Of a stretch of DNA of 64,000 nt, positions 1 to 13,493 are shown piece after piece (positions within the stretch are counted from its first letter, which is position 1; every line of letters begins with the position of its first letter). The stretch comes from Lentilactobacillus hilgardii DSM 20176 = ATCC 8290 (GTDB lineage Bacteria > Bacillota > Bacilli > Lactobacillales > Lactobacillaceae). A program made the position numbers and the translations under genes. The notes beneath the pieces are model-generated. The model was not told the DNA's origin. It worked only from the letters and a program-made list of their open reading frames with translations, and ran no database searches. The stretch covers positions 78,242-142,241 of the forward strand of contig NZ_GG669993.1 in the NCBI RefSeq assembly GCF_000159315.1. The letters are read 5' to 3'.

Positions 1-1614
1 TTGGGAGTAAGTTTTTTGCAACAAGGGTCTAAAGCCAGCACGAGCCCAGAAACCGGTACAAGAAGTTCACAAATAGTAGAATCTAGGGAAACATTAGATT
101 CTTGGATGCCTGATAAGGGATTACAACAGGATATTTTAGCCTATCTAAAGAAAACATCCCAGCTTCCAAAAGATGCCACATTAGAGGATATTACCAAAGA
201 AGTGGCAAACAATAATCGTTATATAAACATTGATATTACTAATCCAGTATCTTCATTGCAAGGGCTAGAATTCTTTAACGGTATGTTTAGTATTGGGTAT
301 TTAACGTTTAGGAACACAAAAGTGCTCTTTCCAGATCTTAGTAATTTGAATCTAAATAATAGTTACCGTCAGCTGGCTACCCAGTATGATAATAATGGTT
401 TTAATGATTTGTCACAAACGTTAAATCAGATTAAGCAACAGTTGAGTACACGAGAAGACCTTGGAAAGTTACATGTCGTTTATTTAGGGTTTACTCATCA
501 GCATTTTACGGATATTTCGCCATGGTATGGCTTTTCTCAACAATATTCTAATCTTTCTCTTTACCAAAATGGCTTTTGGGGATTTAATAACAATACGGCA
601 TTTGCAGAAGCACAATTGGAGGAAAATGGCGACATTGTTTTAAAAAATCCGTTGTATATTTTTGATGATCAAGGGAATAGAATTTCACTGACTGATGGCA
701 TAACCGCGACTAACAACGGTAGCTATGATCAAGGTAAAAATGAAATTATTTGGCACAACGCTGATCCAAATACAAAATTGGAAGTAAACTGGAAAAAAAT
801 TATGAGTGATTCAAGCCCCTATAACAAGCAACCAAATAAGGATATAAATTTTAATGGTCAATTAACGATTAATGTATTGGGTAGACCTGTAACCGTCAAT
901 TACCTTGATGAAAGTCATAACAAAATTGCAGAATCTAAAATTATTACCGGCTATTTTGGTGATAATTATAAAACCGAACAAGTAGATGTACCGGGATATA
1001 CATTCATTTCGGTCGATGGCGAAAAGGTGGGGAAAATTGGTGCTAAGAATGTCATTGTAAATTATTACTATAAAAAGGAGTCGACACCAACAGTGCCAAC
1101 GACACCGACAACACCGACGACGCCAACGGTGCCAACGACGCCAACAACCCCAACAGCGCCAACAACCCCGACGACACCAACAGCGCCGACAACACGTCCA
1201 GACCAAGTTTCGGATTCTGACATTCCAAATTATGTAGTCGCAAAAGGTCAAGCTGTATATGCAGTAAATACGATTGGACTTTATAAAAAAGGTGATTTTT
1301 CCAAGAGAAATCGTATTAAGTATTACAAAAGAGCTGTACGAATTAATCGTCCGGAGTTTGTTGTCAAAGGATATAAACGGGATAAGTCTGGCAAATTAAG
1401 ATATCGCGTCCAACAATATAGTCCGTATGCTAAGCGGTATATTAAAGGAACCTCTGGATACATTACTTCTAGCGTTAAATATGTCATCCCTGCTTATTAT
1501 GCGACTCTGCCCGCAAATAAAAAGATCAAAATTATTAACCCAAATGGAATAAACTCATACAGGAAACTGCACTCACCGGAGAAATCAGGCATTTTAAAAA
1601 GGGACAAATATTAA
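1..1614 (+). CDS. Surface adhesin, internalin-like cap, MucBP and SLAP-type domains; 5'-partial and frameshifted
   Basis: Cell-surface protein that enters the window already open, with no visible signal peptide or ribosome site at its first codon, so the true start is probably upstream. The first ~120 residues look like the cap and first strand of an internalin/BspA-type leucine-rich region. A MucBP-like domain follows at about residues 292-356 (pattern VNYLDE...GYFGD...GYTF). Next is a Pro-Thr linker (about 361-399), then a C-terminal surface-layer-type (SLAP) module starting near residue 411. The frame ends at 1614, but the following bases, read in the third frame, continue a second SLAP-like unit (FKKGQILKVKKIVKY) to a stop at 1719-1721. 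A single-base loss near 1560-1570 therefore probably truncated the gene. SLAP domains bind wall polymers, so the break may weaken anchoring. The domain family calls are from memory of patterns, not from a search. Confidence 0.75.
   Translation: MGVSFLQQGSKASTSPETGTRSSQIVESRETLDSWMPDKGLQQDILAYLKKTSQLPKDATLEDITKEVANNNRYINIDITNPVSSLQGLEFFNGMFSIGYLTFRNTKVLFPDLSNLNLNNSYRQLATQYDNNGFNDLSQTLNQIKQQLSTREDLGKLHVVYLGFTHQHFTDISPWYGFSQQYSNLSLYQNGFWGFNNNTAFAEAQLEENGDIVLKNPLYIFDDQGNRISLTDGITATNNGSYDQGKNEIIWHNADPNTKLEVNWKKIMSDSSPYNKQPNKDINFNGQLTINVLGRPVTVNYLDESHNKIAESKIITGYFGDNYKTEQVDVPGYTFISVDGEKVGKIGAKNVIVNYYYKKESTPTVPTTPTTPTTPTVPTTPTTPTAPTTPTTPTAPTTRPDQVSDSDIPNYVVAKGQAVYAVNTIGLYKKGDFSKRNRIKYYKRAVRINRPEFVVKGYKRDKSGKLRYRVQQYSPYAKRYIKGTSGYITSSVKYVIPAYYATLPANKKIKIINPNGINSYRKLHSPEKSGILKRDKY
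1081..1200 (+). repeat. Pro-Thr coding repeat (PTVPTT/PTAPTT)
   Basis: A run of 9-base units encoding P-T-x triplets forms the flexible linker between the MucBP domain and the SLAP-type module of the adhesin. Such linkers span the cell wall. The near-identical units (acaccgaca, acgccaaca and similar) are a likely site of slippage and copy-number change. Confidence 0.85.
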
Positions 1615-3104: not shown

Positions 3105-3240
3105 CTTTTAAGACGTTGACGGAAACATATTAGTTTCCACATAAGTTGTTTTTACCGACGTTAGATAACAATCGAGAAAGTCAAGAATATCATTGTACCA
3201 GTATTTTAACACTCGACAGCCCCTCATGAAACCCTATCAA

Positions 3241-3606
3241 TGGAGTCGGCGGGAGTCGAACCCGCGTCCGAGCATATCGCCACCTAGATATCTACGTTCA
3301 TAGATCTACTATTTGGAATTCACCATTTAAAACGCCGCAAATCAAGGCACCCATAAATGGCTAACCTGATTAATCTCTTCAGTTGACTTCAGGTGGGAGC
3401 CAACTGCGTGAGCCCACTAAATTTAAGACCCAGATCCAACCCATGGGCGAGATTGGGAGGATCTACGTTAAGCGCTTATTAGGCAGCTAAAGCGTAAGAA
3501 TTGTTATTATTTTTTGCAGTTATAATTTAAACTGGGCGTTTTTACGTGACGCCGCACGAAACGCAATCCAAGCTCGACCTATACCCGTCGAATCCTTAAC
3601 GACCCC
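3241..3606 (-). ncRNA. ssrA: tmRNA (ssrA)
   Basis: Transfer-messenger RNA, which with SmpB rescues stalled ribosomes and tags the unfinished peptide for proteolysis. The 5' end on the minus strand reads GGGGTCGTTAAGGATTCGAC and the 3' end GACTCCCGCCGACTCCA, giving a seven-pair acceptor stem with one G-U pair. The T arm GGGTTCGACTCCC is intact. The tag frame reads gca aaa aat aat aac aat tct tac gct tta gct gcc taa, that is AKNNNNSYALAA. The CCA tail is not encoded. A promoter lies just upstream with an extended -10 (TGATACAAT, complement of 3623-3631) and a weak -35. Confidence 0.97.
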
Positions 3607-3655: not shown

Positions 3656-4429
3656 TTAGATTAGATCATAGTGCTTGAGACCATTCACAATGCCGTGATC
3701 TGTATTATTAGTGGTGATAAACTCTGCATATTCTTTAACATGTGGCAAACCATTGCCCATAACAACCGGATGATCGACATATTGGAGCATTGGCACGTCG
3801 TTATTACCATCACCAAATCCGTAAGTGGGAATGCCGGTTAATCCTGCGTTTAAAATGAGTTCTTGGATGCCGCGTTTCTTCGAACCGTTTTTAACGACGA
3901 CATCCATACTAAACGGTGTATTTCGATAGAAAGTCAGTGTATCATCAAATGTATCAATATATTTTTGATCGTGACCAACGGTGTTGACAACCATCATATA
4001 GATTGGGTGTTGCTTGACGAAATTTTCTGCGCCTAAAGGTGGAATTCGAGTATTAATAGATTTGTAGTTGCTTTTTGTGTCGACCGTCACAAAGTTGATT
4101 GCAGCTCCTAAATTATTCATCACAGTTGTTGATTCGTTCATTGATTTGGCGAAATCCATAAACTTAGTTACAATTTCCGGCTTGATAATTGCTTCATAAA
4201 CCGGTTTGTTTTCAAAAAGAACATAATCACCATTTGCGGATACGACTGTATCAATTTCTGTTTTTTCTAATATTTCAGGGATTTCAAAGATATTTCTACC
4301 AGTGGAAATAACTGGTAGAACATTGTTGCGACGCAATTGTTTCATTGCTTCAGCAACTTCTGGATCAACTTTTGTTTGTTCGTTTAATAATGTATGGTCG
4401 AGATCGAAAAATGCAATTCCTTTATACAT
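3656..4429 (-). CDS. Cof-type HAD phosphatase
   Basis: A 257-residue haloacid-dehalogenase-superfamily hydrolase of the Cof/YidA group, which dephosphorylate sugar phosphates, nucleotides or flavin precursors in the cytoplasm. Motif I is FFDLDHTLL near the N-terminus (Asp nucleophile and Asp acid/base), motif II is the Ser/Thr in VISTGR, and motifs III/IV are the Lys region and GFGDGNNDVPM near residue 210. The start at 4429 was chosen because AGGATGG lies eight bases upstream; the earlier ATG at 4441 overlaps that site. Substrate not predictable. It is divergent from the C39-like gene. Confidence 0.9.
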   Translation of the reverse strand: MYKGIAFFDLDHTLLNEQTKVDPEVAEAMKQLRRNNVLPVISTGRNIFEIPEILEKTEIDTVVSANGDYVLFENKPVYEAIIKPEIVTKFMDFAKSMNESTTVMNNLGAAINFVTVDTKSNYKSINTRIPPLGAENFVKQHPIYMMVVNTVGHDQKYIDTFDDTLTFYRNTPFSMDVVVKNGSKKRGIQELILNAGLTGIPTYGFGDGNNDVPMLQYVDHPVVMGNGLPHVKEYAEFITTNNTDHGIVNGLKHYDLI

Positions 4430-4513
4430 GAATTTAACCATCCTAGTTTTTTAATTTGTGGAAAAAGAAACGTTACTTTATTATCATAACAATCTTGGAC
4501 CTTTTCAAGCAAG

Positions 4514-4543
4514 TTGACCATTTTCTGGTAAAATAGATATAGT
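4514..4543 (+). promoter_or_regulatory. Promoter for the C39-like gene and two-component system
   Basis: TTGACC, an 18-base spacer and TATAGT, ending 15 bases before the ATG. The coding start follows so closely that the 5' leader must be very short. Confidence 0.55.
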
Positions 4544-4558: not shown

Positions 4559-5257
4559 ATGGAGAAGACGACCATCGCTAATGAAAAGACCAATCGTTTT
4601 TTTGTGCGACTTAGAAGAATCCCTGGAGAACACTGGTATCTTGCGACTGAAGGACCAAAAATTACGACTACCAGCAGTAAGGTTAAGATTCCAGATGAAA
4701 TCTTAACCCAGGATTTTTTGATTGATCAAATTAGTTTTTTTAATAAACAAATTTGGTATCACTTTACTTACGGTGACCTATCAGGGTGGCTGCCTAAACG
4801 AAACATCCGCAAGACCTTTCGTAGACTGGATGTTCCTGCCATTAAGCAAGCAACTCAAGCAGATATTGATAATCAATCTGCAGCACTGATGATGCTGCTT
4901 CGAAATGCCGGGAGTGATATTTCATACCCTGATTTAAAGGTTGCGGTTGAAAAATGGCAGCGAACGAATACCGGTTTGATCGGTTTAAGCGATTTGATTA
5001 TTTCGGAAACTCACTCTATAAGGGATTTAAATAAGGGCAATTTGAGGCAACTAGATAAACAATTGCTTAGAAGACGACCGATTGTATTGCGAGTCAATGG
5101 ACTGAATAATTTAAAATCCAGCTTAATTGTTCTGACTGGTTTTAACAGGAAACTATATTTCTATAACGATCCGTGGACTGGGCGATTAGAATCGGTCTCG
5201 GAGAATCATTTAAAAAAGCATTGGCTTCAAGGTCATGTAGAAGCCATTAGCTATTAG
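4559..5257 (+). CDS. C39-like peptidase homologue lacking catalytic residues
   Basis: A 232-residue protein. Residues 1-85 are a beta-rich, GW/SH3-like region (LSGWLPKRNI). Residues 95-232 follow the C39_2 papain-like layout: a helix after the nucleophile position (NQSAALMMLL, 105-114), a strand RPIVLRVNG (173-181), and the hallmark FYNDPWTGR (201-209). The usual catalytic Cys is Ser107 or Ala and the protein has no cysteine at all; the usual His before the IVLTGF strand is Ser187/Ser188. So it looks like a pseudo-enzyme, perhaps a binding or sensing module. No signal peptide or membrane span is seen, unlike most secreted C39_2 proteins. It sits 17 bases before the response regulator gene and shares its promoter, so a role beside the two-component system is likely but inferred. 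Confidence 0.7.
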   Translation: MEKTTIANEKTNRFFVRLRRIPGEHWYLATEGPKITTTSSKVKIPDEILTQDFLIDQISFFNKQIWYHFTYGDLSGWLPKRNIRKTFRRLDVPAIKQATQADIDNQSAALMMLLRNAGSDISYPDLKVAVEKWQRTNTGLIGLSDLIISETHSIRDLNKGNLRQLDKQLLRRRPIVLRVNGLNNLKSSLIVLTGFNRKLYFYNDPWTGRLESVSENHLKKHWLQGHVEAISY

Positions 5258-7505: not shown

Positions 7506-7544
7506 AAATAGGCGCTCACGCAGATTTGTGTGGCGTCTATTTTT
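7504..7544 (+). terminator. Terminator of the two-component operon
   Basis: AAAAATAGGCGC pairs with GCGTCTATTTTT around a loop; it overlaps the kinase stop codon. Confidence 0.8.
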
Positions 7545-7714: not shown

Positions 7715-8191
7715 TCACTGGTTACTAGTGGCTTGCTGATTTTGTTTAACGATTTTGAAATTCGGCTTTCGCGTATAATGGCGGAACCCTTTATAGAAAT
7801 AAAGATTTTTCTTATCAGGCGCTTTTACTTTGTAGGATAGGCGTTGGCCGTCAAATTGAACGGAGGCACCTTTCGGTGAGTATTGAATACCGGTTATGAG
7901 ATAGATATGATGACGAAGCGCCTTATATTTAATATGTTTTAATCCGTATCCCGGTAATTTATAGTAGCCGAGGTTATTATCGGACTGTTTAAAAAGCTCG
8001 CCTGAACTCAATGTTTTGGTATAGGTAATAAATGCCTTTTGCTCTCCAGATCCGTTGTAGTACCAGTTCCCTCTGATAACTTTTGGGGTACCGGTATGCC
8101 AAGTAGCTGCGTCAGCATTGGCACTTTTAGTTAATGCAAAAATAAATAAGCAGATAATCATAAAGGGCAAAATTAATTTTCGAACTTTCAT
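7715..8191 (-). CDS. Small secreted hypothetical protein, 158 aa
   Basis: I do not recognise a named family. The start at 8191 has GGAGG eight bases upstream; the longer frame above it runs into the tRNA gene and is not real. The product begins with a clear signal peptide: basic MKVRK, a hydrophobic core to about residue 20 and a likely cut after ANADA (about residue 27). The mature part is rich in Tyr, Lys and Gly (WYYNGSGEQKAF, YYKLPGYGLK), resembling small exported lactobacillus proteins built of beta strands. Transcription may come from read-through of the tRNA-Gln unit just upstream, because I see no separate promoter. Confidence 0.75.
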   Translation of the reverse strand: MKVRKLILPFMIICLFIFALTKSANADAATWHTGTPKVIRGNWYYNGSGEQKAFITYTKTLSSGELFKQSDNNLGYYKLPGYGLKHIKYKALRHHIYLITGIQYSPKGASVQFDGQRLSYKVKAPDKKNLYFYKGFRHYTRKPNFKIVKQNQQATSNQ

Positions 8192-8210
8192 TAAATAACC
8201 TCCGGTAATA

Positions 8211-8254
8211 AAAAATCCCATTATCTTGGCGCTATCGCAACCAACCATAATGGG
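8211..8254 (-). terminator. Terminator after tRNA-Gln
   Basis: On the minus strand CCCATTAT and ATAATGGG flank a loop and lead into ATTTTTTATT. It lies between the tRNA and the secreted-protein gene. Confidence 0.7.
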
Positions 8255-8261
8255 CCATTTA

Positions 8262-8334
8262 TTGGGTATACTGGGCTCGAACCAGTAAATTACGGATTCA
8301 GAGTCCGCTGCCTTACCAATTTGGCGAATACCCA
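8262..8334 (-). tRNA. tRNA-Gln (anticodon CUG)
   Basis: Cloverleaf of 73 bases with acceptor stem TGGGTAT/ATACCCA and discriminator A, anticodon stem GCGGA/TCCGT around the loop CTCTGAA (anticodon CTG, reads CAG), and T arm CTGG-TTCGAGC-CCAG. The CCA is not encoded. CUG is a minor isoacceptor beside the usual UUG species. Confidence 0.93.
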
Positions 8335-8357
8335 ATGAACAAATATCACAGTTAATA

Positions 8358-8442: not shown

Positions 8443-8465
8443 ATTATTTGTGAGTTTGAGAGCAT

Positions 8466-8539
8466 TGCCCGCTGGTCAAACTGGTTTAAGACGTCGCCCT
8501 CTCAAGGCGGAGTTACGGGTTCGAGCCCCGTGCGGGTGA
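8466..8539 (+). tRNA. tRNA-Glu (anticodon CUC)
   Basis: Cloverleaf of 74 bases. Anticodon stem CGCC/GGCG encloses the loop CTCTCAA, anticodon CTC, reading GAG. The T arm is ACGGG-TTCGAGC-CCCGT. The acceptor stem TGCCCGC/GCGGGTG begins with a U1-G72 wobble followed by G2-U71, where tRNA-Glu normally has G1-C72. Discriminator A is present, CCA is not encoded. It has its own promoter and terminator, so it is a single-gene unit for a minor isoacceptor. Confidence 0.88.
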
Positions 8540-8563
8540 TAAATTGAAATAATCAACGAATCT

Positions 8564-8743: not shown

Positions 8744-10120
8744 TTACCAATAGCCTAGTATCTCTGCTAGTTTGGCCCGATCAACATCTCTTGATGTCAG
8801 GGTAGCAGAAGTATACGCCATTGCATCTGAAGGATCCTTTGCCTGAGTCCAAGCATACTTGACAGGACTTGGGGTTGCGTCTTGTTCATCGCTTGATGAT
8901 GCGAACATGACGTCACTTTGGTAAGGAGTATGATATAAGCCAAGCCCATGACCAAGTTCATGCATAATAACGGTTGTCCAGTAATTGGTTGTTGAAGCTT
9001 GAGAAATAGCAGGCTGTTCCTGTACATAAGCATCTTTAACTGCTTGGCGCAGTGCAGACACTTGGGAGTCATAATTTTGACGAATTGCTTTGTCTTGGTT
9101 TTCATAATTCGTCGCTAAATCACTTATTTGCTTTTGGATGGTTGATTTGGTTGAAGCGTTAGAGGAATTGTTATACTTGCTTTCCAGCGTTAAATATTGT
9201 AGTTGATAATTAATTCTTAATTTGTTAAGTAGGGTATTGGTTAAGTCCAATAAGCTGGAAGCTTGATTTGAAATGTCAGTTAGTTTTGCTTCCAACGTCG
9301 ATGAAGTTGCTAGATTATTATTTGCATAATTTGGATTTGTAAAATTTTTCGAGTTAATTTCAATGATATTACCACTGAAAAGGCCATCCCATTTTTCTGT
9401 TGACGCATCATTGAGTTTAACGGTCAGTGTATGGTCGGACGAACTTCCGATCGAAAAAACATTTTTGCCCAAAGCAGCATTCCAACGTTCAATAGCTGTG
9501 TTAACGTATGAATTTAAACGATTATCTGCAACGTAAATTTTAGCATGATTGTCTTTAAAAACACCAGATGACGCAAACTGTGCCAGATTGTACTGTTGGC
9601 TTAGGGTCGTCTTATATTTTGAATAAACGTCAGTTTCAAATCCAAGGATGGTTAAGTTTGGATCAAGATCCGGTGCGGCGTTGATGTACGACATCAGTTG
9701 AGATTGTGAGGACACGGTTGCCCCAATAATTGAATTAGAAGAATTGATTTTACTAGGGATTTTTTTCAAATAGTTTCGCCAAACCCACCCGGAGGCTTTC
9801 TTTCCAGAATTACTCTTGACGTAATAGTAAATCCGATACTGATTATTAACTTTTAATTTTTGATGGTAATATGCGGTGAAGGTTTTGTGACTATAATTTG
9901 AAAGTTTAAAAACTTTTTTACCCAATTTGGCCGAGTAAGCATACCCATTCTTGGCTTTAGATTGATTGATCGTGTAAAAGGAGCGTGTCATCTTTTGACG
10001 CCAGACGACTTTTACAGCCGATTTTGCCTGAGTATTTGGTTGGTTATTCATTAGGAATCCCACAGAAAAAGCGAATGCCGTGAGTAACACACCTGGGAAA
10101 AATTTCTTATTTACCTTCAT
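8744..10120 (-). CDS. Secreted matrixin-like zinc metalloprotease
   Basis: A 458-residue exported protein. ATG at 10120 follows GGAGG; a signal peptide covers about residues 1-32. Residues ~35-125 form an SH3/SLAP-like beta region (WRQKMTRSFYTI...ASGWVWRNYL). A metzincin fold begins near residue 190 (KIYVADNRLNSYVNTAIERWNAAL). The zinc site is HELGHGLGLYH at 387-397 (His387, Glu388, His391, His397), with the Met-turn at Met405 (SDVMF). Between fold start and zinc site lies a helical insert of about 110 residues (about 270-375) with coiled-coil character, unusual for plain matrixins. It should act outside the cell on proteins or peptides; the target is unknown. Single-gene unit with an operator-like palindrome at its promoter. 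Confidence 0.88.
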   Translation of the reverse strand: MKVNKKFFPGVLLTAFAFSVGFLMNNQPNTQAKSAVKVVWRQKMTRSFYTINQSKAKNGYAYSAKLGKKVFKLSNYSHKTFTAYYHQKLKVNNQYRIYYYVKSNSGKKASGWVWRNYLKKIPSKINSSNSIIGATVSSQSQLMSYINAAPDLDPNLTILGFETDVYSKYKTTLSQQYNLAQFASSGVFKDNHAKIYVADNRLNSYVNTAIERWNAALGKNVFSIGSSSDHTLTVKLNDASTEKWDGLFSGNIIEINSKNFTNPNYANNNLATSSTLEAKLTDISNQASSLLDLTNTLLNKLRINYQLQYLTLESKYNNSSNASTKSTIQKQISDLATNYENQDKAIRQNYDSQVSALRQAVKDAYVQEQPAISQASTTNYWTTVIMHELGHGLGLYHTPYQSDVMFASSSDEQDATPSPVKYAWTQAKDPSDAMAYTSATLTSRDVDRAKLAEILGYW

Positions 10121-11126: not shown

Positions 11127-11456
11127 TTATTCAAATGATAGATCAATTAAATATTTATTTCTGTTTGCCAGATGAGATGTTGTAATCCACAAGTCGTGAT
11201 AACTGCTATCTTTTACGGCAGTTTTATCATGGAAATAATCGAGCAGATCACTGTTCATAGACACAAAGTCGGGAGCCATGCGGTTTACTTCCAAGCGCTG
11301 GGATGGAAAATAAATTTCTGGATTTCCCAATTTAACATCATCATCTAAATACATTTCAACAACATTATCATATTTATCAGGGCGAATGGTCGCCTTGGCA
11401 GGATGCGCCTTAATGTATGATAAAACGTGGTAAATTGTATCGGAATTGCTTGCCAA
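11127..11456 (-). CDS. Hypothetical protein, 109 aa
   Basis: Family not recognised. The TTG start at 11456 is supported by GGAGG nine bases upstream. The product is soluble and acidic, without signal peptide or membrane segment. An N-terminal helix (DTIYHVLSYIKAHP) is followed by alternating charged strands (DNVVEMYLDDDVKLGN) and a C-terminal strand. It may be a small cytoplasmic binding protein; no neighbour gives a hint. On the minus strand just before it (11500-11540) TTGACA-like sequences occur on the wrong strand, so its promoter is uncertain. Confidence 0.65.
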   Translation of the reverse strand: MASNSDTIYHVLSYIKAHPAKATIRPDKYDNVVEMYLDDDVKLGNPEIYFPSQRLEVNRMAPDFVSMNSDLLDYFHDKTAVKDSSYHDLWITTSHLANRNKYLIDLSFE

Positions 11457-11670: not shown

Positions 11671-11742
11671 ATGCAAAAAGAAATAAAAGTTAATTTTATG
11701 CTTTTCCAGGAGTTCTACGAGGAGTGTGAAAGCAATTGTTAA
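11671..11742 (+). CDS. Possible 23-codon leader peptide overlapping the ABC exporter start
   Basis: ATG at 11671 follows a GTGGGGG ribosome site. The frame reads MQKEIKVNFMLFQEFYEECE and SNC, and its TAA (11740-11742) overlaps the exporter's TTG start (11736-11738) in another frame. The exporter's own ribosome site GAGGAG lies inside this short frame. Such an arrangement suits translational coupling or ribosome-stalling control, as known for leaders of some antibiotic-resistance genes. A promoter -10 (TATAAT, 11614-11619) is about 50 bases upstream. The peptide itself matches nothing I know. Confidence 0.4.
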   Translation: MQKEIKVNFMLFQEFYEECESNC

Positions 11743-13493
11743 AGTTAATGAAGAGTAGAGTTTCCTATCTTGCTGTTTTTGGGGCAGTTGTTTTTTTGCT
11801 GCTTCAAGTTTCGAGTGACCTTTATTTGCCAACCGTAACCTCAAACGTGATTGATAAGGGGATTGCTCAAAATAACATTGGCTATATTTGGAGTGAGGGC
11901 TTCAAAATGCTTTTCGTTTCATTCTGTGGTGTTTTGGCAGCAGGCGGGAATATCTTTTTTGCCGCTACACAGTCAATGAAAATGGGTCAACGCAGCAGAG
12001 ATGATATGTTTCAAAAGATCACCAGGTTTTCTCAAGAGGACATGGATCATTTTGGTGCGGCTTCATTGGACACAAGAACGACAAATGATGTTGTTCAAAT
12101 TCAAAATGTTATGGTACAGATTCTACGGATGATGCTAATGGCACCGCTGATGCTGCTTGGTGCATCAGTCATGTCATATGTGAAGAGCCCTGATCTAACC
12201 ACGATTTTTATCATTTGTTTGCCATTGGTTGCTCTGATAGTCGGAGGATTGATGTATTATGTCGTTCCTCTCTTTAAAACAATGCAAAAGAAAACGGATC
12301 GCATTAATTTAATCTTTGGCGAAGCGTTGGGCGGTGTCCGTACGATTCGTTCTTTTAACCGTGATGATTATGAAAATCAGCGCTTTGATGCCGCTAATAA
12401 AGACTTTGCAAAAACTGGTATTAAGGCCTTTACAATTGTGTCATTTATTATTCCAATCATTACGATCATCTTCAGCTTTATTAATGTAGCAATCGTTTGG
12501 TTCGGTGCCGACATGATTTCCAATCGGACGTTGGCGGTTGGAAACCTGGTTGCTTTTATGACATATTCCGGTCAAATCCTATTTAGTTTTATGATGCTTT
12601 CAATGATTTTTGTCTTTTTGCCAAGAGCATCGGCATCAGCTGCCAGAATTATCGAAGTTTTGGAAGTGAAAGATACGATTATAGGTCCCGATAAGCCACA
12701 ACCGCTTGGTCATCATGAAGTTGAACCGTCGTTAGAATTTGACAACGTTTATTTTCGGTATTCATCTGCTGAACAACAAACGTTACAAAATGTCAGTTTT
12801 AAAGTTCGTGGTGGTCAAACATTAGCTATTATTGGTGGTACCGGATCGGGGAAATCGACGCTGATCAATCTGATTCCAAGACTAATTGAGCCTGAGAAAG
12901 GAATGGTCAAGGTCAATGGTTTGGAAATTGATAAACTAACACAACACGATTTGCATTCACTCATTTCGATTAATCAGCAAAAAGCGGTTCTCTTCTCTGG
13001 AACGGTTCGTGAAAACATGTTATATGGGAAGCAGGATGCAACTGATGATGACATCTGGCACGCTCTGGAAGTGGCACAGGCGACTGAATTCATTACACAA
13101 GATAATGGCGGTCTTGATGCCCACGTTGATCAGAATGGTGACAACTTTTCGGGTGGTCAAAAACAACGTCTTGCAATTGCACGGACAATTTTAAAACCGG
13201 CGGATATTTATATCTTTGATGATTCATTTTCTGCTTTGGACTTTGAAACAGATGCAAAATTACGGATGGCACTAAGAACAGACAAGCAGATTCAAAGGGC
13301 CATTACGGTTATTGTGGCACAGCGGATCTCTACAGTCGCGGATGCAGACTTAATTCTGGTTTTGGATAATTGTCAAGTTGTCGGAGAGGGATCCCACAAA
13401 CAATTAGCAGCTTCGAATTCGGTTTATCAAGACATCTTGAGATCTCAAATTGGAGAGCAGGGGGGAATTAACAATGCGAACACCACCAGTTAG
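11736..13493 (+). CDS. ABC exporter half-transporter, degenerate-site subunit (LmrC/BmrC type)
   Basis: A 585-residue membrane-ATPase fusion. Six membrane spans fill residues 1-320; the ATPase domain has Walker A GGTGSGKST, Q-loop in SINQQKAVLF, signature FSGGQKQR, Walker B IYIFDDSFSALD and switch region VIVAQRIST. The catalytic Glu after Walker B is Asp, and the switch His is Gln, so this subunit supplies the dead site typical of heterodimeric exporters such as LmrCD, BmrCD and TM287/288. TTG start chosen because GAGGAG lies 11 bases upstream. It overlaps the partner gene by 20 bases. Likely substrates are drugs or lipophilic compounds, by family only. Confidence 0.9.
   Translation: MLKLMKSRVSYLAVFGAVVFLLLQVSSDLYLPTVTSNVIDKGIAQNNIGYIWSEGFKMLFVSFCGVLAAGGNIFFAATQSMKMGQRSRDDMFQKITRFSQEDMDHFGAASLDTRTTNDVVQIQNVMVQILRMMLMAPLMLLGASVMSYVKSPDLTTIFIICLPLVALIVGGLMYYVVPLFKTMQKKTDRINLIFGEALGGVRTIRSFNRDDYENQRFDAANKDFAKTGIKAFTIVSFIIPIITIIFSFINVAIVWFGADMISNRTLAVGNLVAFMTYSGQILFSFMMLSMIFVFLPRASASAARIIEVLEVKDTIIGPDKPQPLGHHEVEPSLEFDNVYFRYSSAEQQTLQNVSFKVRGGQTLAIIGGTGSGKSTLINLIPRLIEPEKGMVKVNGLEIDKLTQHDLHSLISINQQKAVLFSGTVRENMLYGKQDATDDDIWHALEVAQATEFITQDNGGLDAHVDQNGDNFSGGQKQRLAIARTILKPADIYIFDDSFSALDFETDAKLRMALRTDKQIQRAITVIVAQRISTVADADLILVLDNCQVVGEGSHKQLAASNSVYQDILRSQIGEQGGINNANTTS

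Follow-up and report, generated by a model that had tools for sequence, protein, structure and literature searches.

A stretch of 64,000 nucleotides from Lentilactobacillus hilgardii (the window) carries a gene whose product we take, with moderate confidence, to be a pseudopeptidase that stands alone in the cytosol, acts by binding and not by cleavage, and is tied in two genera to an operon resembling PieRS of Listeria. This reading is built on two domains, loss of the catalytic cysteine throughout the clade, purifying selection, a conserved gene order with tight spacing, and the occurrence of the gene and the signalling pair apart from each other, as established by sequence comparison and structure models. 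On this reading the product is a free, apparently cytosolic pseudopeptidase of the GW-C39_2 build. Coordinates are given in Table 1.

Table 1. Features of the pseudopeptidase gene, its operon, and the divergent neighbour, in window positions
Feature	Positions	Strand	Basis or remark
GW-C39_2 pseudopeptidase gene	4559..5257	+	232 aa; without signal peptide, catalytic Cys, or catalytic His
N-terminal SH3-like GW-type domain, residues 1-91	4559..4831	+	AF2 model, structure matches, hhalign
C39_2 papain-like domain, residues 92-232	4832..5254	+	3erv structure and profile matches; without catalytic Cys/His
Asn105 codon (catalytic Cys column)	4871..4873	+	Asn in 24/24 genus members
Ser188 codon (catalytic His column)	5120..5122	+	21 Ser and 3 Asn among the 24 genus members
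Extended -10 (TGGTAAAAT), probable shared promoter of the three genes	4526..4534	+	Cross-species conservation
OmpR-type response regulator (PieR-like), 245 aa	5275..6012	+	Pfam Response_reg, Trans_reg_C
Sensor histidine kinase (PieS-like), 498 aa	6009..7505	+	Pfam HAMP, HisKA, HATPase_c
Terminator-like hairpin just past the kinase stop	7516..7533	+	Consensus scan only
Cof-type HAD-IIB hydrolase, divergent neighbour	3656..4441	-	TIGR00099, 146.1 bits, cut-off 137

Domain build and location

The window protein contains zero Cys and is, by prediction, made of two domains, GW-type and then C39_2 papain-like. The AF2 model of the whole protein had a pLDDT of 88.8. For the C39 part (residues 85-232), the best solved structure was 3erv (Z 15.0, rmsd 2.9, 148 aligned), and PCAT1, ComA, and the C39-like domain of HlyB (3zua, Z 10.4) ranked below it. 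The profile of the 24 genus members (A1) matched PDB 3erv, a C39-like peptidase, at 3.6e-5, and the wider profile A3 did so at 1.3e-7. By the structure match to 3erv, the C-terminal half has the papain-like C39 fold of Peptidase_C39_2 (PF13529), and the FYNDPW motif is present, in agreement with an earlier reading made from the letters of the window (the sequence-only reading), which had assigned this half to C39_2 and had proposed structure prediction as a check. Residues 1-92 modelled alone gave a pLDDT of 78.0, below that of the C39 part, and a best Foldseek E of 0.021. The model matched the autolysin repeats 4epc best (Z 9.0, rmsd 2.2, 78 aligned), followed by InlB 1m9s (Z 8.3) and the Listeria autolysin 5jqc (Z 7.7), all three of which we take to be GW-module proteins, and these matches give the region the SH3-like fold of the GW domain (PF13457).

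In the Pfam scan, the window protein matched no family at E 0.01 or better; its best match, Peptidase_C70 at 0.018, was under the cut-off, and the gathering scores of PF13529 and PF13457 were not reached. PF13529 was matched at E 0.01 by 14 of the 24 members of A3. Its 24-bit cut-off was passed by L120 (33.7 bits), a relative within the two-component operon of genus g37, and by L102 (24.2 bits) among seven cytosolic relatives scanned singly; the Pfam GW cut-off (21 bits) was passed by the relative L122 (22.5 bits), and five of eight cytosolic members scanned singly passed no Pfam cut-off. Both domains were found by Pfam in the relatives L056 and L125. A profile of 12 GW-C39_2 proteins was aligned to the cytosolic family by hhalign at 99.9% over 220 columns, from residue 10 on, with a stretch of about 14 residues of the GW-C39_2 proteins missing from the cytosolic family. 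Together, the fold matches, the Pfam matches in relatives, and the hhalign result identify the window protein as a GW-C39_2 protein without an export signal.

The open frame around the gene has just 234 codons, so no upstream extension is able to hide a signal peptide, and neither a signal peptide nor a hydrophobic N-terminus was found in the window protein from its frame and Kyte-Doolittle values. Relatives were taken as the 46 full-length proteins (about 219-232 aa) among the matches listed, from 397 genomes sampled evenly from a larger group. Their maximum 15-residue Kyte-Doolittle window within the first 60 residues was ≤1.13 in every case, versus >2.0 in 20 of 23 comparison proteins, which were picked from the sequences fetched and are not a systematic sample. 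The lack of an export signal in the sequence-only reading was thereby borne out, and the missing signal peptide suggests that the window protein is apparently cytosolic. Among lactobacilli, secreted GW-C39_2 proteins such as L056 (277 aa) have the same domains in the same order and the same C-terminal ISY/LSY end, but unlike the window protein they have hydrophobic N-termini, Cys and His, and the extra residues (about 14). The term "secreted" does not fit all of the 23 comparison proteins, since L001 is short and lacks both the GW domain and the hydrophobic N-terminus. Of the 23 other genus genomes, 15 encode a GW-C39_2 protein that has both Cys and His (weaker matches, frames of 278-350 aa), and none was listed in the own genome, where the two PF13529 matches are L001 and L002. 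L001 (G000:C113:657908-658306) is a C39_2 protein of 161 aa with Cys and His, without a signal peptide or GW domain.

Active-site residues and selection

The catalytic Cys column falls on Asn105 by alignment to Cys-bearing relatives, by HMM alignment to 3erv, and by hhalign, and not on Ser107/Ala, where the sequence-only reading had placed the nucleophile. Its assignment of Ser to the His position was correct, the residue being Ser188 by alignment. At the aligned positions 3erv, a putative C39-like peptidase, has Cys and His, unlike the window protein. Asn105 and Gln97 are both invariant in the 24 genus members, whereas residue 107 (4877-4879) is Cys in 12, Val in 5, Ala in 3, Ser in 2, Leu in 1, and Tyr in 1. 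Because of Cys107 in these 12, the description as cysteine-free is true of the window protein and not of the family, and conservation of the Ser substitution was found in the His column (21/24) but not at residue 107 (2/24).

None of the 46 listed relatives has Cys in the Cys column, which is occupied by Asn (36), Ser (4), Met (2), Glu (1), or a gap (3). The Asp column holds Asp in 40, Asn in 5, and Thr in 1. His is found in the His column of four relatives, all from g40 (L114, L116, L117, and L118), in which the Cys column holds Asn and the His and Asp columns are intact. With His in these four and Asp in 40 of the 46, part of the old active site persists; in the four g40 relatives, the nucleophile alone appears to be clearly gone, and they may represent a decay intermediate or a different use of the groove. 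Cys and His occur together in 0 of the 46 relatives, and Cys, His, and Asp are all present in 23 of the 23 comparison proteins.

As judged from these alignments, cysteine-peptidase chemistry with the standard residues is excluded. An active enzyme using another nucleophile, such as Cys107 or a Ser, would be in keeping with Cys107 in 12 of the 24 genus members and with the His and Asp columns kept in the four g40 relatives. This is very improbable, as the remaining 12 have Val, Ala, Ser, Leu, or Tyr at residue 107, no relative combines Cys with His, and in the 12 Cys107 proteins no His falls in the His column or up to two columns away.

The loss of catalytic residues might also be expected of a decaying pseudogene or a mis-called ORF, but the gene is present in 24 of 24 Lentilactobacillus genomes with a stop-free frame in all, and dN/dS was 0.03-0.10 in 12 of 13 chosen pairs, the thirteenth giving no value through saturation. 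These ratios are rough, since most pairs approach saturation at synonymous sites (dS >1 in 10 of the 12); the two pairs with dS <1 gave 0.06 and 0.03. In the 10 pairs with values for both halves, dN/dS was lower in the GW half in nine and equal in one. A pseudogene is next to impossible on these values, and the ORF is, on the evidence of sequence comparison, real and under purifying selection. The proposal of a dead papain-like protein with a non-catalytic role therefore held up, with Cys absent in 46 of 46, no row with both Cys and His, and dN/dS of 0.03-0.10.

The operon, its surroundings, and the distribution of gene and pair

The pseudopeptidase stop (5257) and the regulator start (5275) are separated by 17 bp, a gap that ranges from 10 to 20 bp across all 24 genus genomes, and the regulator and kinase genes overlap by 4 bp. 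An extended -10, TG[GT]TA[AG]AAT, ends 21-25 bp 5' of the start codon in all 24 genus members. The promoter call rests on this cross-species footprint rather than on the sigma-70 scan, which was uninformative (11 sites versus 9.4, sd 3.1, expected). The three genes probably share a promoter, as had been suggested, and would be co-transcribed. At 23 of 23 other genus loci, the HAD hydrolase gene (-) stands before the gene and the regulator and kinase genes behind it, and the same gene-regulator-kinase order was found in three g37 genomes. The gene order, which the sequence-only reading had put forward for checking, is thus kept in the genus (24/24) and in these three genomes; in the 19 listed carriers of four other genera and at 32 other chosen loci with the pair, gene and pair occur apart.

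The best NCBIfam matches were PieR for the regulator (292.4 bits, cut-off 450) and PieS for the kinase (449.9 bits, cut-off 850), so that PieRS of Listeria is the best likeness of both signalling genes and neither reaches the equivalog cut-off. A link of the pair to envelope stress would follow from this below-cut-off resemblance. PrsA1, PrsA2, Lmo0442, Lmo0881, Lmo1505, and Lmo1506 are named as members of the PieRS regulon in the accessible part of PMC12234432, and no member is described there as a pseudopeptidase of the window type. The motif TTTNCAAGCAAGTT, considered as a regulator-binding site defining a regulon, was set aside: with one mismatch allowed, it had 14 matches in the own genome versus 8 for the reversed control, and since the exact motif matched solely at the operon, no regulon was inferred.

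Other features of the window were recorded as follows. The terminator-like scan gave 8 sites on both strands versus 2.6 expected, one of them inside the pseudopeptidase ORF (4681-4708, +; a 10-pair hairpin and then a T-rich stretch). A tmRNA gene lies at 3238-3606 (-) with the tag AKNNNNSYALAA, and tRNA-Gln (ctg) and tRNA-Glu (ctc) genes lie at 8261-8335 (-) and 8465-8540 (+). As the ORF at 7715-8335 overlaps the tRNA-Gln gene with its first residues, the TTG start of that ORF is probably wrong. The ORF at 8744-10120 (-) has a zinc-protease-like motif, HELGHGLGLYH, and at many loci of the genus its homologues are no more than about 8 kb away from the operon. A 109-aa protein is encoded at 11127-11456 (-) and an ABC exporter subunit at 11736-13493 (+); relatives of both are found close to the stand-alone gene at several loci of g40, which points to an old regional synteny. 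The ORF at 1-1614 (+) has a long PTT repeat stretch and is perhaps the end of a surface protein.

The nearest named species were L. farraginis (88%) and L. raoultii (87%). The 23 matching records comprised 18 from Lentilactobacillus, 1 Lactobacillaceae MAG, and 4 distant ones from Lactobacillus (20-25% identity). Other listed carriers, with proteins of about 219-232 aa, belong to g40 (at least 15), g49 (at least 2), g51 (at least 1), g53 (at least 1), and g37 (at least 3). No full-length relative outside the family was found among the matches listed at E 1e-15 for 395 genomes of the order, a sample drawn evenly from a larger group, so that rare occurrences may have escaped it. Listed matches from other families are partial and lie in frames of at least 280 aa, and three of them (L192-L194) have a hydrophobic start and intact Cys and His. 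In the C39x tree, the 46 listed relatives lie on one side of a branch with 100/100 support and the 23 comparison proteins on the other; the tree is midpoint-rooted, which makes clade status of the 46 likely. An RpoB tree was built by a quick method from part of the protein in 60 chosen genomes and rooted at its midpoint. It groups 19 of 22 carriers with a single non-carrier (g43); the remaining three carriers are those of g37.

A protein that binds the kinase or the regulator and sets its activity would be a third component of the system, as the sequence-only reading had supposed. In all 24 genus genomes, the gene opens a tightly spaced unit of three genes, with conserved adjacency to the pair as in an accessory component; the order recurs in three g37 genomes, and both partners would be within reach of a cytosolic protein. 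Against this, the gene is not confined to genomes with the pair. All 19 listed carriers of g40, g49, g51, and g53 lack orthologues of the regulator and the kinase: the best regulator match in these carriers has 46-51% identity, versus 71-75% in the carriers of g37, and the top kinase match is limited to the C-terminal catalytic part, from residue 248 or 249, which together indicate that the orthologues are absent. No regulator or kinase stands beside the gene in the g40, g49, g51, and g53 loci read. Conversely, no relative of the gene was found at E 10 beside the pair at 32 loci chosen from the matches listed (12 in g37, 20 in other genera), and in g37, the pair occurs without the gene in 12 of 15 listed genomes. 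The pair test on the species tree was left with 3 usable pairs and had no power. We consider a third component unlikely overall. As a general role it is set back by the 19 pair-less carriers and the 32 gene-less pair loci, which make a dedicated component of this kind unlikely on sequence grounds; within Lentilactobacillus, the protein may have become linked to the pair later on. Of the binding or regulatory role proposed earlier, the non-catalytic part is upheld by the dead active site and purifying selection, and the third component as a general role is not.

Within g37, two of the three carriers diverge earliest in the kinase tree, and the third comes at the fork that follows, which is unresolved. 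The most economical history has an old gene, with the gene and the pair each lost independently later on; transfer may also have occurred.

Proposed role

With the catalytic Cys absent, binding is the most likely mode of action. The window protein is related over nearly its full length to the secreted GW-C39_2 proteins, minus the export signal, Cys, His, and about 14 residues, and would act by binding a putative ligand through the GW barrel, the former substrate groove, or both. Its production in Lentilactobacillus and the three g37 genomes would be in step with the PieRS-like two-component system. It would most simply be an output (effector) of the operon in envelope or secretion stress, rather than a member that the phosphorelay requires.

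Some exporters are known to contain dead C39 domains. In exporters of the HlyB type, the dead C39-like domain holds substrate that is unfolded, as described in the available portions of PMC6363468 and PMC8277102, and the latter gives Tyr at the Cys position in HlyB and Asn in one RtxB transporter. The C39-like domain of HlyB (3zua) resembles the window protein in its dead C39 fold (Z 10.4, rmsd 2.9, 118 aligned), but it is fused to an ABC transporter, whereas the window protein is a separate ORF of 232 aa with a GW domain, and it retains a His stacking on Trp (same portion of PMC8277102) where the window protein has Ser188. The HlyB-type precedent and the resemblance of the pair to PieRS favour a binder that would be co-produced with an envelope or secretion stress response. 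None of the dead papain-like families named in the accessible text of PMC10318531 matches the window protein. No paper on a pseudopeptidase of the window type was found among the best matches in the open-licence literature.

Two other ligands were weighed. With the GW barrel moved inside, the protein might bind an intracellular polyanion, such as wall teichoic acid precursors at the inner membrane face. The GW-type domain in residues 1-91 would fit such a role, as would the basic character of all 46 listed relatives (pI 9.2-11.1), and binding of lipoteichoic acid by GW domains is described, outside the cell, in the excerpt of PMC4944223 available. PF03412 and PF04464 were scanned in 35 of 46 carrier genomes, and PF04464 also in 48 chosen non-carriers, 10 of them from g37. 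The TagB/TagF-type PF04464 was found in 35 of 35 carriers versus 27 of 48 non-carriers, and the lone non-carrier inside the carrier clade (g43) has a weaker match (1.3e-42). However, the carriers are kin, and on the species tree, with a match at E <1e-100 as the trait, 3 usable pairs are left and the test has no power; shared ancestry is a sufficient cause of the association, which makes teichoic acid a lead only. In addition, 20 of the 23 comparison proteins are basic too, strong PF04464 matches were found in all 10 g37 non-carriers tested, and GW proteins can remain in the wall without lipoteichoic acid, according to the same excerpt (PMC4944223). We regard polyanion binding as doubtful. Binding of double-glycine leader peptides on behalf of a C39-type exporter would suit the fold, which is shared with the peptidase domains of PCAT1 and ComA, but a full-length PF03412 match in a frame of exporter size (719-730 aa) was found in just 3 of 35 carriers, 10 more having weak partial matches in frames of 101-240 aa. 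Leader binding is disfavoured by this scarcity and is highly unlikely.

A binder produced alongside the stress response is thus the preferred reading. A free, apparently cytosolic two-domain dead C39 protein is conserved in at least six genera of one family. Since gene and pair can each be found alone, the link between the protein and the signalling system is open to testing in non-pathogenic strains. A bolder version, to which we give a low probability, is that an entire surface protein, a GW anchor with a C39_2 protease, was retaken into the cytosol, ceased to be catalytic, and came to read envelope polymer precursors or stalled export substrates at the inner face of the membrane. If this is true, the envelope-stress operon in two genera would gain an inside view of the pathway that the kinase watches from outside.
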